DNA from: a virus
Reading direction: 5' to 3' (one strand)
DNA length: 24,489 bases
IMG/VR virus record: IMGVR_UViG_3300003885_000039
Span: 1 to 24,489 of that record
Shown: in pieces, positions 15,995-24,295 of the stretch
How positions within the stretch are numbered: position 1 is the first letter of the stretch
Layout: each line of letters begins with the position of its first letter
Translations under genes and position numbers: made by a program
Notes under the pieces: generated by a model
Seen by the model: the letters and a program-made list of their open reading frames with translations, nothing else
Told to the model about the DNA's origin: nothing
Database searches by the model: none

Positions 15995-16558
15995 TTACAA
16001 AAACGCCTCAGGGTTTATTGCCCCGATTTCGTCTAATACCAATCCATGGTTTTCTCCATCCGTTAGTAATTCCTTTACCATTTTTGGGTTCATTGCATTG
16101 ACTACTTTCTTAGGCAATTCCCTCTCACGCACATCTTCAACTAAATAATGCTCTTGCAATGTCTTTGCAAAAACCGGCTGCACATGAATAATTGCCTGCA
16201 TGTTTTGATTGATCTGAATCATATTGTTTTGTTTATTTCCCATTCCGTTCATACCATTTCTCCTTATTGCCTTATTGGCCATACCTGCCGCCTTCAATGC
16301 AAAGTCAGGATCTGGAGCATTCATCAGTACATCAAGTACACTACTCACTGCATACTCTTCAATCCCTTCCCATCCTTTGTCTAATATTGCAGCCTTTGTA
16401 AATGATTCCTCTGTGATGATTGCCATCTCAGTTTTATAATCATCCGTTTTAATCAATTGGGATATTTGTTCCTCATCCACATTAAATACAGCAGCCATTG
16501 CTTTCATGCTTGCACCACTGTATGCCAATTTGGCTAATTTGTTTATATGCTTTTTCAT
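15995..16558 (-). CDS. Putative small terminase subunit / HTH DNA-binding protein, first gene of the late block
   Basis: A 187-aa protein. Residues 1-45 contain a helix-turn-helix-like stretch (LAKLAYSGASMKAMAAVF followed by NVDEEQISQLI), then helices (TEESFTKAAILDKGWEGIEE; DVLMNAPDPDFALKAAGMAN), an Asn/Met/Gly-rich linker and a C-terminal acidic region. An N-terminal HTH with a helical oligomerisation core and a variable C-terminus is the usual plan of TerS, which recognises the packaging site. First position in the late operon agrees with this. No specific family motif was recognised, and a transcription regulator is an alternative. The start is certain: AGGAGG lies 6 nt upstream. Confidence 0.5.
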   Translation of the reverse strand: MKKHINKLAKLAYSGASMKAMAAVFNVDEEQISQLIKTDDYKTEMAIITEESFTKAAILDKGWEGIEEYAVSSVLDVLMNAPDPDFALKAAGMANKAIRRNGMNGMGNKQNNMIQINQNMQAIIHVQPVFAKTLQEHYLVEDVRERELPKKVVNAMNPKMVKELLTDGENHGLVLDEIGAINPEAFL

Positions 16559-16825: not shown

Positions 16826-16847
16826 AAATGGGGGGCATATACCCCCC
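16826..16847 (-). terminator. Rho-independent terminator after the small-protein cassette
   Basis: The minus strand carries GGGGGG (16847-16842), a 6-nt loop TATATG and CCCCCC (16835-16830), followed by an A and a T-rich tract. It lies 28 nt after the stop of the 45-aa gene, which matches the end of that unit. Confidence 0.75.
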
Positions 16848-17910: not shown

Positions 17911-18720
17911 TTAACTGATAACTAAATCCATCAAATCATCTACAACAATTTCTGCTTCTTCTGGCATTCCGGCAGTATCACGAGTTTTAACCCAATCTTC
18001 TAACATGCCAACTACAATGCCATCGGCTACTGCTAATTTGCCCATACCATTGATAATGTTCAGCCATACTTCTTGTGGTACGTTGGGGAATGTAGAGTTT
18101 GCAAATGCAGTTGATTGTAAAACTTGACGGAAGGTTGCATCGGTAAGGTCTTTGAATCCTTTTGATTTAAGAACTTTGATGTATTTAGGTGCATATTTAC
18201 GGTATGCAAGAAGAACACCTTCAGCACGATTAGACGTAATAAAGTCTACAACTTCATAAGGTAGAGTAGTTGATATTTCGTCGTTTGCATTTGGTCGTGC
18301 TGAATTCGCAAGTTTAACTACAATGGAATTGTTGACGATATCACGGATGTACTTCATTCCATCATCAGTAGTAGATAGAATTTCATACGTTGGGATTGCA
18401 CCAACTGTCACACCGACTACGAAACTTTTACCTGTTTTCTTATCACGTTGTTTGATAGGGTTGATGATGATTGAATAGCCATCGTGAATATCACCTTTTG
18501 CAGGGTCGAAATTATAGACTATTTTACCTTTTGCATTTGATACGATAGTTGATGCGGCGGTGATGGCTGTACCTGCTACGTCTAATTGGTCAGGGGAGAA
18601 AAACTGTGAACGCATATCTTGCATTGCTTTTGATTGGTCTTGAATAGTTTTAATTTGTTCATCAGTAAGAGTTGGCATAGGTGCTTCTTGAACATTAGGG
18701 TTTGCATCTAAATCTGACAT
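17911..18720 (-). CDS. Hypothetical 269-aa early protein with acidic C-terminus
   Basis: No recognised family. It has an acidic N-terminal tail (residues 1-35), then a helical segment, then a probable beta domain around residues 60-130 (GKIVYNFDPAKGDIHDGYSI; GKSFVVGVTVGAIPTYEILS), then helices (LLAYRKYAPKYIKVLKSKGF). The C-terminus is strongly acidic and hydrophobic at its end (PEEAEIVVDDLMDLVIS). An acidic tail is a habit of phage single-strand DNA-binding proteins, but no OB-fold motif can be claimed. It is a monocistronic unit with its own promoter (18846-18873), a repeat-filled leader and a terminator, suggesting high, separately controlled expression. The AAAAAGGAT box is 8 nt before ATG. 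Confidence 0.75.
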   Translation of the reverse strand: MSDLDANPNVQEAPMPTLTDEQIKTIQDQSKAMQDMRSQFFSPDQLDVAGTAITAASTIVSNAKGKIVYNFDPAKGDIHDGYSIIINPIKQRDKKTGKSFVVGVTVGAIPTYEILSTTDDGMKYIRDIVNNSIVVKLANSARPNANDEISTTLPYEVVDFITSNRAEGVLLAYRKYAPKYIKVLKSKGFKDLTDATFRQVLQSTAFANSTFPNVPQEVWLNIINGMGKLAVADGIVVGMLEDWVKTRDTAGMPEEAEIVVDDLMDLVIS

Positions 18721-18740: not shown

Positions 18741-18800
18741 TAATGAATAAATGAATAAATGAATAAATGAATAAATGAATAAATGAATAAATGAATAAAT
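18741..18800. repeat. Tandem repeat, about 7.5 copies of an 8-bp unit, in the leader of the 269-aa gene
   Basis: ATGAATAA is repeated seven times without change from 18743 to 18798, with partial units on both sides. It lies between the predicted promoter (18846) and the SD of the 269-aa gene, so minus-strand mRNA would carry (UUAUUCAU)7. It may be an iteron-like site, an unstructured translation enhancer or a length-variable leader. Confidence 0.9.
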
Positions 18801-18845
18801 GGTTAAAAGTTAAAAGTTATATTATATCTCTAACTTACAATATAG

Positions 18846-18873
18846 AGTATAGAGGTTATTTTGTTAATTGCAA
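18846..18873 (-). promoter_or_regulatory. Putative promoter of the 269-aa gene
   Basis: Minus strand: TTGCAA (18873-18868), a 16-nt spacer, TATACT (18851-18846). Predicted leader is about 115 nt and contains the period-8 repeat. It has the same TTGCA-type -35 and 16-nt spacer as the late promoter. Confidence 0.55.
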
Positions 18874-18920
18874 GAAAATAACTGAATATGGGTGAGATTA
18901 GTTAAAATTACATTACTGGT

Positions 18921-19276
18921 CACATCACAGATTACAAGCGAAAATGATAGGTCGCCCCCTCCGGCTAAATCTATACTTAGTGCAAAACCCCTATATATTG
19001 CCAATGAGTTTATGTATATGTATTGCAAGGTATGTATATAGTAGATATATGTATATAAGGGGTATATAGGGTCTCTATATAGAATTAATAATTTTATAAG
19101 ACCCCTATTTATATAGCCTAACAGAGATACTGCAAGTACCGTAGAGAAGGGAGAATATGGAATAGTACATTGCAGGGACGTAGAACAGGTGGATGCAGAA
19201 ATAGACGGGTTTTGACACAAGTATAGATTTAATGGGGAGGGGCGACGTCGATTTTTTCGATGTAATCTGTGATGTG
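18921..19276. repeat. Long inverted repeat (71-bp arms) around a 214-bp AT-rich core; candidate origin or control element
   Basis: The left arm (18921-18991) and right arm (19206-19276) align as reverse complements over 71 bp without gaps. By hand count 52 of 71 positions match, in blocks: 15 bp containing GTAATCTGTGATGTG is identical, as are AAGTATAGATTTA and a GGGG-CGAC block. Similarity continues outward (GTAATTTT). The core (18992-19205) is very AT-rich, with repeated TATAT and with three CCCCTAT or ATAGGGG elements in both orientations. It lies between the two divergent transcription units. No transposase or convincing ORF is inside, so an origin, a partition/regulatory site or a MITE-like remnant are the options. 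Confidence 0.6.
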
Positions 19277-19663
19277 ATTGTGATTGTGATTGTAATTTTG
19301 TTAATTTAATCCTATATAGACCGGAAAACCCTTCGTAGATACATAGAGAACTTGAGGAGGAGGTGAGATTATTAGCGGACGTATAAAACCCGATAGATAA
19401 TCAATAGTAAGAGGTAAAACCGGCGGAGATATGAGCTTAGAAGGGATGTAAGGAGGCGCAAAAAGTGGTGAAATTGAAATCTCATTGTAAAACCCTTTCT
19501 TACACGATATTGCAATGAACCTTTGTAAAATTTGGCCATCAGGCCACTTATTATATAAACTGTACCAAGTATCAAATACCATACACAGGACACAGGACAG
19601 TAATATTCTCTCATTGCAGGATGAAAATAAATAAAATTAATCACTTGCAGGAAGGTTATCTAC
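19277..19663. other. Non-coding stretch rich in purines, no convincing gene
   Basis: This part of the central gap starts with a period-6 repeat (GTGATT, to about 19290). It then holds purine-rich tracts on the plus strand (AGGAGGAGGTGAGA near 19354, AAGGAGG near 19450), the motif TATAAAACCCGATAG (19382-19396) and a TGGCC-ATCA-GGCCA mini-hairpin near 19531-19544. ORFs in it are short, low-complexity and lack a sensible SD-start pair. A regulatory or replication role, or an untranslated RNA, is possible. Confidence 0.4.
19290..19318 (+). promoter_or_regulatory. Possible second rightward promoter
   Basis: TTGTAA (19290-19295), a 17-nt spacer, TATATA (19313-19318), just outside the right arm of the inverted repeat. 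It would transcribe the 19320-19660 stretch, which has no convincing gene. Weak evidence in AT-rich DNA. Confidence 0.3.
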
Positions 19664-19692
19664 TTGACAAAATAATAGATATAGACTACAAT
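19664..19692 (+). promoter_or_regulatory. Strong sigma70-type early promoter
   Basis: TTGACA (19664-19669), an exact 17-nt spacer, TACAAT (19687-19692). The -35 is perfect and the -10 has one deviation. Transcription would start about 35 nt before the ATG at 19733 and drive the rightward operon. It is the best promoter match in the window. A small AGGG-ATA-CCCT palindrome (19718-19728) overlaps the SD region. Confidence 0.8.
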
Positions 19693-19732: not shown

Positions 19733-20668
19733 ATGAATAATAAACCTGATAATAAACCTGATAATATAGATAGTACCGATAATACCGATAATACGGATAT
19801 ATTAATAGATTCTATCAATCATATAGAAATGTTCTATACTGACAAATCAAACGATTTCAACCGTTATTGCATGAAAACCGGCAAATCACTCCTACCCATT
19901 CCATATAATGAAGTAAAAAACCTAATAGCTATTCATGGTTTTGAACGTAGCAAAATGGTAATTGCCAAATTGCAGCAAAGTATTGCATTAGAATGGATAT
20001 TAACTGATGATATCGCGTTGCAAAGACTAGTAGATAAACAGCCGGTAGAATATTTAATATATGCAATGAGTTGTTTATTAGTATCCCCAAAAATAGATAA
20101 TACTATTGATATGTTGGAAGATTTCAATATTAAAATCAAATGTAACACCTTCCTACATAGTCTACCATGGGAACAAATAGTAATATGCGCAGAAGCAATA
20201 CGTAAATTACTAGCAAGTAATCGTCCAATTGCAATACAGGAAATGATAGACAATTGCAAGATGGAACAAATATGTTCATCACAAGAATCCCTTTTTAAAT
20301 TCCAATTAACCTTAACTGAATGCATAAAGATGATTGCAGACGGGCATTATGACCAAAGTTTAATTGATGCAAAAAACCGGCAAAAGAGAGTTTTATTTGA
20401 ACGGCAAAAACAATTAACCAGTTTATCTACATTGGAACAGGAGATATCCGATTCATTGCCCAACTTTGATGAAATTGAATTGCCAATTAGTGAATTGAAA
20501 AGATTGATTATGAAAACAACTAATCATAAGATGGAACGAATTAAAACACAAGAACGGCAAGAACGGATGAAAATCATAAACAAAATGGGGAAGAAAACAC
20601 CCTTTATATCCAATTTTGAAAATAAACCATTTGCAGGGTTTAGTATTAAAAAGGATAGCAAATCATGA
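19733..20668 (+). CDS. Hypothetical early protein, first gene of rightward operon (311 aa)
   Basis: No recognised family. The first 25 residues are a low-complexity Asn/Asp/Thr/Pro stretch encoded by 12-bp and 9-bp tandem repeats (NKPDNKPDN, then DNTDNTD). The remainder is mainly helical with Leu/Ile-rich helices (NEVKNLIAIHGFERSKMVIA; VEYLIYAMSCLLVSPKIDN). The C-terminal quarter is basic and coiled-coil-like (MERIKTQERQERMKIINKMG), followed by FAGFSIKKD. As the first gene behind the strongest promoter it may be a replication initiator, loader or regulator, but no motif proves it. SD AAGGGA lies 10 nt upstream. Its end overlaps the next start as ATGA. Confidence 0.75.
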   Translation: MNNKPDNKPDNIDSTDNTDNTDILIDSINHIEMFYTDKSNDFNRYCMKTGKSLLPIPYNEVKNLIAIHGFERSKMVIAKLQQSIALEWILTDDIALQRLVDKQPVEYLIYAMSCLLVSPKIDNTIDMLEDFNIKIKCNTFLHSLPWEQIVICAEAIRKLLASNRPIAIQEMIDNCKMEQICSSQESLFKFQLTLTECIKMIADGHYDQSLIDAKNRQKRVLFERQKQLTSLSTLEQEISDSLPNFDEIELPISELKRLIMKTTNHKMERIKTQERQERMKIINKMGKKTPFISNFENKPFAGFSIKKDSKS

Positions 20669-21755: not shown

Positions 21756-23528
21756 ATGAAAATAAAAATCGCACCAGTAATCAAATTAAACCCTAAAAAC
21801 CCTGTATCGTCTGCATCATCCTCACGTGATATACTTTACGGAACCGGTTTAACAAAGGCAGTTGTAAAAAAGGCTAACAGACTAGATTTATCATCCCCCG
21901 CATTATCTGCATCTACAACTAGTGAAGAGATTGATGTTAAAAACCAATTAACCAGTTCCCAATCTTTAACTACTGTACTTCCATCATCTCTTATGTCTAA
22001 TGATATCATTCTTGATCCAGATCAAATAGCTGCAAAATTAGGAATGATTAATCAAAAGTATTCCATATTAATAGGCAGTGCAGGTACAGGTAAAACAACT
22101 ACCCTAAAAGCACTCATTATAGAAATTGAACCGTATCTACCTTATATACTAGCTGCATCAGGGGATAAAATACCTTCAATTGCCTTTGTTGCATTTATGG
22201 GTAAAGCAGTACAGCAAATGAAACGCGCATTACCTAGAAATTATCACAGCTTATGTAGTACTATTCATGTACTACTAGAATTTAAACCTGTATATGAAGA
22301 TGTATTTGATAAAGCTACAGGGGAAATGAAATCCAAAATGCAATTTCTACCAGAGCGTAATGCTAATAACAAATTAGAACTTGATTGCATATTCATTGAT
22401 GAATGTGGTACTTTAGGTGTCCCATTATGGCATTACTTATTAGATGCCCTACCTAGTACTTGCAGAATTATCCTACTTGGAGATTTGAATCAATTAGTTC
22501 CAGTTGCAGGACATAGTATTCTTGGCTTTGCAATGTTAGCATGGCCAACCTATGAACTGACTAAATTACATCGAAATGCGGGCCCGATTGCAGAAAACGC
22601 CCATAGAGTCATAGAAGGCAAGAAGCCCTTAACTGATGAAACTAAGAAAGTAATAGTTAAAAAAATGGATGATGGAAGTATAGGCGCAAGAAAGGAATTA
22701 CTTGGAACCATTCAATATCTATACAAAGCAGGTAAATTTGATCCAATGCAAGATGCTGTTATTGTGCCTCAAAACGTAGATGTATTAGGACAGATACAAC
22801 TAAACGAAGTATTAGTAAACCTATTCAACCCAAAAGCTAACCGTATTGCAATCAAAGCAGGCACAGAAATAAAAGTATTGGCAGTTGGGGATAAGATTAT
22901 GGTGTTAAAAAACATGGCACAGAGAAGGTTAACAAATGGAATGCAAGGGGTTATCACATCAATAGCCACAAACAATTCCTTTAAGGGTTCACATAATGCA
23001 ACCCAAAAAGCTAACGCTCTTGTTACAATTGATTTGCAGGACTTCGATAAAGCCTTTGATGCAATTGAAGATTTAGACGAAGATTCAAATTTATCTGAGG
23101 GAGAACGACAAGGTTCTCATGTAATCACTATACAGTTTCAAGATGTAGAAGGGGAAACCACATTTTCTACAGTAGGAGAATTGCAAGCCATTACCCTATC
23201 TTATGTATTCACATGCCATAAAGCTCAAGGTAGCGAGTATAGATTTGTAATTGTACTCTGCCATAGTGCTAATCATCGCATGTTATGTAGAGAATGGTTA
23301 TACACAGCTATGACCAGAGCAAAAAGCAATCTACTTGTTATGTGTAATAACAGAGGATTAACTCAAGCTGTAAAAGTGCAAAGGATAAAAGGTATCACCA
23401 TGAAAGATAAAGCTGAAAAGTTCATTGCATTAACTAAGTTATCTCCTAATGAACCACCCGCAGTAATACCAAAAGCGGAAAAGTTAATTACTAAAACTAA
23501 TCTACAGTTTAATATTAAAAAGGATTAA
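21756..23528 (+). CDS. SF1 DNA helicase, RecD/Dda-like
   Basis: A 590-aa ATP-dependent helicase for phage replication or recombination. After a disordered Ser-rich N-terminus (1-85) come motif Q-like DPDQ (87-90), Walker A IGSAGTGKTT (106-115), motif Ia FVAFMGKAVQQMKR (144-157), Walker B FIDECG (213-218), motif III LGDLNQL (241-247), motif IV region LTKLHRNAGPIAENAHRV (268-285), the NGMQGVI element (394-400) of the SH3-like domain, motif V TCHKAQGSEY (486-495) and motif VI WLYTAMTRAKSNLLV (514-528). The set and order fit SF1B RecD2/Dda helicases. A 60-residue acidic insertion (about 405-465) is unusual. The basic C-terminal tail contributes the SD of the next gene. One nt separates it from the DUF6011 gene. 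Confidence 0.88.
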   Translation: MKIKIAPVIKLNPKNPVSSASSSRDILYGTGLTKAVVKKANRLDLSSPALSASTTSEEIDVKNQLTSSQSLTTVLPSSLMSNDIILDPDQIAAKLGMINQKYSILIGSAGTGKTTTLKALIIEIEPYLPYILAASGDKIPSIAFVAFMGKAVQQMKRALPRNYHSLCSTIHVLLEFKPVYEDVFDKATGEMKSKMQFLPERNANNKLELDCIFIDECGTLGVPLWHYLLDALPSTCRIILLGDLNQLVPVAGHSILGFAMLAWPTYELTKLHRNAGPIAENAHRVIEGKKPLTDETKKVIVKKMDDGSIGARKELLGTIQYLYKAGKFDPMQDAVIVPQNVDVLGQIQLNEVLVNLFNPKANRIAIKAGTEIKVLAVGDKIMVLKNMAQRRLTNGMQGVITSIATNNSFKGSHNATQKANALVTIDLQDFDKAFDAIEDLDEDSNLSEGERQGSHVITIQFQDVEGETTFSTVGELQAITLSYVFTCHKAQGSEYRFVIVLCHSANHRMLCREWLYTAMTRAKSNLLVMCNNRGLTQAVKVQRIKGITMKDKAEKFIALTKLSPNEPPAVIPKAEKLITKTNLQFNIKKD

Positions 23529-23533
23529 ATATA

Positions 23534-24295
23534 ATGAAAAAGAAAATTAACATCATATCTTTAGCAGAAACTATAGATACCATAGCGTATATTCGTACTA
23601 AAGAATCAACATCCAAATTGGTATTTGATAGATTAACCGAATTAGAATTAAGGTTGCGCATCTCATATGAAAGACAGGTAAAAAATGTAGGCAAATGGTG
23701 TCCTGCATCAGTCTGCATAGGTTTCATATTAGGTGCTGCAACTGCGCTGTTCGCATTCCCTCAAAATCTACATGCAGATTCATTAGTGGTAAACCTAACA
23801 TCTATTCATGCAGATAAAACCTATAAATACAATAGTGCAAATACAGGTTTTGGTTTATTAATGGATGTAAACCGCCATGTTGAAATAGAAGCAGGGTTTT
23901 ACAATAACAGTTACGGTAAAACATCCCTATATACACTGATTAATTTAAAGCATGAAATGAATGGGTGGAACTGGGGCATTGCAGGAGGTCTTGTAACTGG
24001 TTATAACGATATTGAAGATAAAACACAGATGCAATCGAGATTTTCAAATGGAAGAAAAAATGGCTCTCTTAGACCGCACCACAACCCTAAACTAAACAAA
24101 TCTGCATCAAAGTATAAGGTGAAAGATGCCCCTCATAGCCACCCTAAGAATGTCAATGCAATACAGTTCATGGTACTCCCCAACGTAACTTGGAAGATTA
24201 CCAAAGAACATGCATTGAATCTTATAGTAGTTCCTGCATTTAGTAAAAATACCTTTGCATTTGCAGGTTTGAAGTATAGATATAAATTCGATTAA
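23534..24295 (+). CDS. Probable outer-membrane beta-barrel protein with unusual N-terminal extension
   Basis: A 253-aa protein. Residues 1-53 are a charged, helical, cytoplasm-type segment. Residues 54-81 look like a signal sequence or anchor (WCPASVCIGFILGAATALF, then a possible cleavage site NLHA/DS). The rest is beta-rich: SIHADKTYKYNSANTGFGLL, VEIEAGFYNNSYGKTSLYT, WNWGIAGGLVTGYND and a final FAFAGLKYRYKFD ending on Phe plus Asp. The S-H-----yN--N-G-G plus aG-Y-NSyg--S-Y pattern is one I associate with phage- and PagP-like outer-membrane barrels. Residues 165-205 form a basic His/Pro/Lys-rich loop. A role in surface change or superinfection exclusion is speculation. The AAAAAGGAT box is 8 nt upstream; a shorter start lacks a good SD. 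Confidence 0.65.
   Translation: MKKKINIISLAETIDTIAYIRTKESTSKLVFDRLTELELRLRISYERQVKNVGKWCPASVCIGFILGAATALFAFPQNLHADSLVVNLTSIHADKTYKYNSANTGFGLLMDVNRHVEIEAGFYNNSYGKTSLYTLINLKHEMNGWNWGIAGGLVTGYNDIEDKTQMQSRFSNGRKNGSLRPHHNPKLNKSASKYKVKDAPHSHPKNVNAIQFMVLPNVTWKITKEHALNLIVVPAFSKNTFAFAGLKYRYKFD

Follow-up and report, generated by a model that had tools for sequence, protein, structure and literature searches.

Genome context of the locus

Which function does a long, imperfect inverted repeat serve that lies between two divergent transcription arms of a phage genome? The question is raised by the window, i.e. the whole stretch of 24,489 nucleotides analysed here, a 24.5-kb viral record that represents a fragment of an uncultured podovirus. 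An earlier note on this DNA had considered four options: a replication origin with symmetric initiator sites, a symmetric operator set for the divergent promoters, a partition or centromere-like site and a MITE-like insertion. Of these, the replication origin is the best supported.

The leftward genes of the window encode portal, terminase and an SU10-type major capsid protein. Within the rightward operon an SF1 helicase of the Dda/RecD2 type is found (21756–23528, plus strand). Terminase and helicase tie the window distantly to Polaromonas phage Tiera, EBPR podovirus 3 and the Fredfastierviridae PaMx41 and PaP2, the terminase sharing just 25–30% identity with those of PaMx41 and Tiera. The early arm of a relative, G001, encodes a family A DNA polymerase, a DUF3987-type primase, an SF1 helicase and an exonuclease. 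The product of 23534–24295, which matches a PHROG annotated as PagP-like lipid A acylation, has a homologue in G001.

The first leftward gene (17911–18720, minus strand) codes for 269 aa with a short acidic C-terminal tail and is kept in 40 of the 55 records searched (11/13 near relatives, 29/42 others). The first rightward gene (19733–20668, plus strand) codes for a fast-evolving protein of 311 aa with a YCxKTG motif; by its position only, this product is a candidate initiator. Neither product matched recognised families or folds. Their AlphaFold models (pLDDT 70 and 84) showed no confident fold, and the best Z scores obtained with VIA-align, 3.4 and 2.8, are at noise level. In the comparison of the left protein the phage single-strand DNA-binding protein Enc34 ranked second (E 0.17). 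This rank and the acidic tail may hint at a single-strand-binding role, which is a guess. A provirus scan of the genome contigs for the left gene found none, and phage records searched with the left proteins of two relatives gave no match.

An intrinsic terminator (GGGGGGTATATGCCCCCC-ATTTTT, 16830–16847, minus strand) stands after the left gene. Hence, the left gene presumably belongs to a short separate leftward operon that ends here, and its assignment as a virion gene was dropped. The terminator is a G6-loop-C6 hairpin, and similar G6/C6 hairpins occur at the corresponding spot in most close relatives. The GC-skew minimum of the window (16568) lies just past it. A putative small-terminase gene was assigned to 15995–16558 from its position only. 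A perfect 8-bp tandem repeat, AATGAATA, present in 7.5 copies (18742–18801), lies in the left gene's leader; its length could vary.

Geometry of the inverted repeat and its core

The arms described in the earlier note, 71 bp long and gapless with 52 matches, were confirmed exactly (18921–18991 and 19206–19276, 52/71). The highest-scoring 71-mer pair, 18920–18990 and 19207–19277, has 53 matches, compared with 39/71 for the runner-up among inverted pairs up to 700 bp apart in the whole window. A gapped local alignment of 18920–18996 (left arm, plus strand) with 19201–19277 (the inverted copy, minus strand) reached a score of 71, far above 1000 dinucleotide shuffles (mean 20.1, sd 2.5, maximum 32). 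The inverted repeat is thus beyond chance. Its similarity also continues outward, as had been claimed: it amounts to 71% across 95 nt and, with gaps allowed, extends over 18886–19001 and 19195–19317.

The left arm contains CACATCACAGATTACA, a C-rich tract CGCCCCCTCC and TAAATCTATACTT, and the words ATCACA/ATTACA are present in it. At its outer end, the right arm carries a TGTGAT tandem array (19268–19297, plus strand; 6 bp in 5.2 copies). A 118-codon frame spans the region in the window, and no gene counterpart was observed in relatives.

Between the arms lies an AT-rich core (18997–19200) with the dyad centre at about 19098. Counted as 214 bp, the core is 67% AT and contains nine TATAT elements, in agreement with the earlier description; the CCCCTAT element also listed there occurs once (19102), but ATAGGGG is absent and only the related AAGGGG (19057) and ATAGGG (19066) were found. 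The central element ATTAATAATTTTATAAGACCCCTATTTATATAG (19085–19117) is the positional counterpart of the AT-run with G/C-run that occurs at the dyad of most relatives. It has a C4 run only and therefore failed the G5/C5 pattern described below. Within 250 bp of the dyad centre, the melting energy of the window falls among the easiest 0.24% of the 50-bp windows of the contig, but the window and G001 are both AT-rich throughout (34–37% GC), which makes the melting argument weak for these two.

Predicted sigma70 promoters on both sides face outward. On the left, two candidates that match the consensus (TTAACA-17-TATATT and TTGCAA-16-TATACT, 18839–18873, minus strand) are located 47–53 bp beyond the arm. 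On the right, the consensus match TTGACA-17-TACAAT (19664–19692, plus strand) contains a TTGACA that recurs in most relatives. Immediately upstream of this promoter a 32-bp element (19622–19653) is 91% identical to G001, unlike the intergenic remainder, which is diverged between the two.

The same locus in relatives

Several dozen related contigs were gathered by terminase, capsid and left-gene searches, and 27 divergent intergenic regions (the window and 26 relatives) were compared. In 22 of them the inverted repeat exceeded all 100 shuffles (z 5–25). No significant inverted repeat was found in L173 (G024), L178 (G029), L061, L182 and L180, where the contig end cuts the region. In 14 of 19 long contigs the repeat at this site is the top inverted repeat of the contig. 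The cultured phage Tiera also has its top inverted repeat here (43613–44085), a weak one with a score of 31. In PaMx41 no inverted repeat was detected, and opposed arrays at two places were not above shuffles.

The earlier note had suggested that blocks of sequence were kept while spacers drifted. Between relatives such conserved blocks were not found; only the symmetric architecture is conserved. In an all-against-all BLAST, inverted matches occurred nearly all within one genome and almost none between genomes. Consequently, the symmetry is maintained as the sequence is replaced. The sharing of inverted 6-mers is well above shuffles in most regions, including L061 (z 5.4), despite its lack of an alignable inverted repeat, and in most regions inverted sharing exceeds direct sharing.

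From outside to inside, each half is composed of an outward predicted promoter (often with TTGACA), the repeat arm, a C-rich tract (e.g. CCCCTCC) and the AT-rich centre, which is often AATTTTTTG-like and is followed by a G-run; the mirror image lies beyond. Repeats within the arms are spaced by about 5–7 bp and their word is phage-specific: ATCACA/ATTACA in the window, ATAACA in L060, CTAACA in L176, TGACGC in L181, TCTAGT in L188 and TCTTAT in L187. Arms are up to 190 bp long and 65–80% alike. A central AT-run with G/C5 is present in 20 of the 27 regions (shuffles: mean 6.6, maximum 13), and the stricter ATTTT..G5 form in 13 (mean 1.0, maximum 4). A search of all viral contigs with AATTTTTTG-nn-GGGGGG-T returned six other matches, none of which lies inside an inverted repeat (scores 17–22). 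Therefore, the core alone is not diagnostic.

In Tiera (L251) a segment of about 70 bp, taken from one of the arm regions, occurs twice in head-to-tail order at about 43900–44080. The otherwise diverged relatives L186, L190 and L191 share a GCGACGAACCGAGTGATTCCTGCGACGAACCGA-like element of 34–37 bp outside the inverted repeat, 88–92% identical.

Melting, GC skew and map position

In all 19 contigs a 50-bp window close to the dyad ranks within about the easiest-melting 1% of the contig. In G043, G046 and G038 the easiest-melting 50-bp window of the whole contig is in the vicinity of the dyad, and in Tiera that of the genome (43821) is at the dyad (43849). The low stability is most striking in GC-rich members.

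The earlier note had proposed to look for a GC-skew switch at the site. A switch is near the site in most genomes, but usually 2–2.5 kb aside. In 15 of 19 contigs the detrended minimum is no more than 3.5 kb away from the dyad, typically 2–2.5 kb toward the left-gene side. It coincides exactly with the dyad in G008 and G030 alone, and lies far from it in G009, G024, G029 and G035. A binomial value of 1e-8 for this proximity is overstated, since the relatives share history and are not independent. In most near-complete contigs the maximum is roughly opposite. This is the pattern that an origin would give; it is support rather than proof, and the minimum coincides with the change of gene direction, so that it is not attributable to replication alone. 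The position of the dyad varies among the near-complete contigs, from close to one end to close to the opposite one. Such scatter resembles circular permutation of the map, which requires an internal origin.

In the window, G001, G024, G027, G035, G038, G041, G042, G043 and G046, one short word that differs between groups is over-represented throughout the genome, both inside and outside coding sequence wherever the two were compared. TGCAA reaches about five times its zero-order expectation in the window (261 versus 52) and in G001 (574 versus 103), and TGCCA is the over-represented word in G024 and G027. In six GC-rich relatives GACTC and/or GAATC (GANTC) are over-represented and fairly evenly spread. 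The strand preference of GACTC flips near the inverted repeat in several genomes, which may follow gene direction.

A putative replication origin

We propose, with moderate confidence, that the element is a cis-acting DNA site and most likely a phage replication origin, probably bidirectional, with symmetric arrays for the binding of an initiator. A phage-coded initiator would bind the arrays of both arms, and the centre, as the unwinding element, would open. Helicase and primase could then be loaded onto both strands, and two forks would run apart, each in the direction in which the operon on its side is transcribed (the early operon on the right, the leftward operon on the left). Two features of theta-type origins were found: an easily melted AT-rich segment (in the 19 contigs and in Tiera) and, as judged from sequence only, short words resembling binding sites beside it (inverted 6-mers, the TGTGAT array). 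Each phage has a private repeat word in both of its arms, which is what co-evolution of the sites and a specific binding protein would produce. The replication genes in the early arm of G001 and the episomal persistence reported for Shea, of the Fredfastierviridae (PMC13348215), also speak for an origin.

Several known origins resemble this layout. The oriL and oriS of the herpesviruses HSV-1 and pseudorabies virus (PRV) are palindromes in which inverted initiator sites accompany an AT-rich centre, a layout like that of the element studied here, without homology to it. The genes on either side of oriL are divergent in HSV-1, and one of them encodes the single-strand DNA-binding protein. The arms of herpesvirus origins are near-perfect and the initiator is UL9, whereas the arms of the window group are 65–80% alike, array-like and turn over between relatives. 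The palindrome of PRV oriL is named in PMC4487798. The origin of the PLE satellite, which works with a RepA_N protein, likewise has repeats in a noncoding region (PMC7145576). There, iteron half-sites converge on a poly-A tract, and the origin was located by read depth (PMC7145576). PLE iterons are repeated in direct orientation and bound by a recognised RepA; in contrast, the window has two opposed arrays and no recognised initiator. In the oriV of RSF1010 (IncQ) the inverted strand-specific priming signals ssiA and ssiB stand beside an AT-rich segment, an inverted arrangement like that of the window. The ssi sites, however, are conserved 40-mers read by RepB', and the iterons lie to one side.

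Closer to the window, a weak inverted repeat is located at the corresponding divergent site of Tiera, together with the 50-bp window that melts most easily in this genome, in contrast to PaMx41 of the Fredfastierviridae, which is without an inverted repeat. By analogy, the layout may work like herpesvirus oriL/oriS and less closely like iteron origins; it is homologous to none of them. Because the architecture persists without conserved letters and the initiator is missing, we regard it as a variant of known origin layouts and not as a new kind. Only tentatively can a novel origin/initiator pair be suggested, in which an initiator without a known fold, possibly encoded by the right-hand gene, would recognise a symmetric origin, with fast turnover of the words, co-changing arms and a private code in each phage. 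Neither PMC13348215 nor the matched text of PMC9959647, both on related phages, describes an origin; the search mostly covered literature outside subscription.

Alternative functions

The main rival of the origin is a set of symmetric operator or upstream activating sites, at which one regulator on both arms would control both divergent early promoters. For several relatives, promoters are predicted just beyond the arms and almost equally far out on the two sides (L060 36/49 bp, L063 74/77 and L181 71/65). Short tandem repeats at roughly half-turn spacing would suit a repressor or an activator; the ribbon-helix-helix protein omega, for example, binds 7-bp arrays (PMC9499535). Tiera forms turbid plaques at 4 C (PMC9959647). 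The right promoter of the window, however, is 387 bp distant and no regulator was recognised. An operator alone also leaves unexplained the very unstable dyad centre, with its AT-run and G-run, and arms of such length. As the only function we therefore consider an operator somewhat unlikely, but it is compatible with the proposed origin, and it is possible that both are true. The corresponding option of the earlier note survives to this extent.

A centromere-like partition site serving an episomal state would agree with the report that Shea, a phage of the Fredfastierviridae, persists as an episome (PMC13348215). The short-repeat arrays resemble the parS/omega heptads of pSM19035 (PMC9499535), contiguous short non-palindromic repeats, direct and inverted, that lie over promoters as in the window, and the word ATCAC is common to both. 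The unit of pSM19035, however, is the 7-bp WATCACW in contiguous copies, while the array of the window has a period of 6 bp and relatives use other words (TAACA, TGACGC, TCTAGT, TCTTAT). No ParA/ParB-type family was found in the subset of genes scanned. Consequently, this suggestion of the earlier note is weak and a partition function very unlikely.

A long structured RNA transcribed from the region could account for the fact that both strands fold far better than shuffles (mean z about -7). An excess of G-U type over A-C type mismatches on the plus strand (126 versus 78) pointed in the same direction, but it is confounded by strand composition bias and the count was set aside. Folding favours no strand (z -7.7 for plus, -7.1 for minus), the predicted promoters face away, and an Rfam scan gave no family match and merely sub-threshold miRNA noise outside the repeat. 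A strand-specific RNA was rejected on account of the absent strand preference and the absent Rfam match. Since the strands fold equally against shuffles, the promoters point outward and RNA families do not match, the symmetry is best regarded as a property of the DNA, and the structured RNA is a very improbable explanation.

A packaging (pac) or genome-end site could be imagined, as the region is noncoding and 2.4 kb from the putative small-terminase gene. The site lies outside that gene, however, and the dyads range from end to end in near-complete contigs, which argues against ends fixed here; a fixed genome end was rejected for this reason, and the pac reading is extremely unlikely.

The MITE-like insertion, to which terminal inverted repeats and the missing coding core would conform, is contradicted and has practically no probability left, since the element is single-copy in the window, matches nothing among 50,697 phage records, occupies the same locus in most relatives and has far too diverged arms.

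Biological meaning

If the reading as a replication origin is true, sequence alone would have located the origin for a group of podoviruses that are mostly uncultured. The locus is a clear case of a cis element with conserved symmetry and unconserved letters. The cultured phage Tiera and an episomal relative, Shea, offer a means to test the proposed origin. Should one of the flanking proteins turn out to be the initiator, this initiator would lack a recognised fold.
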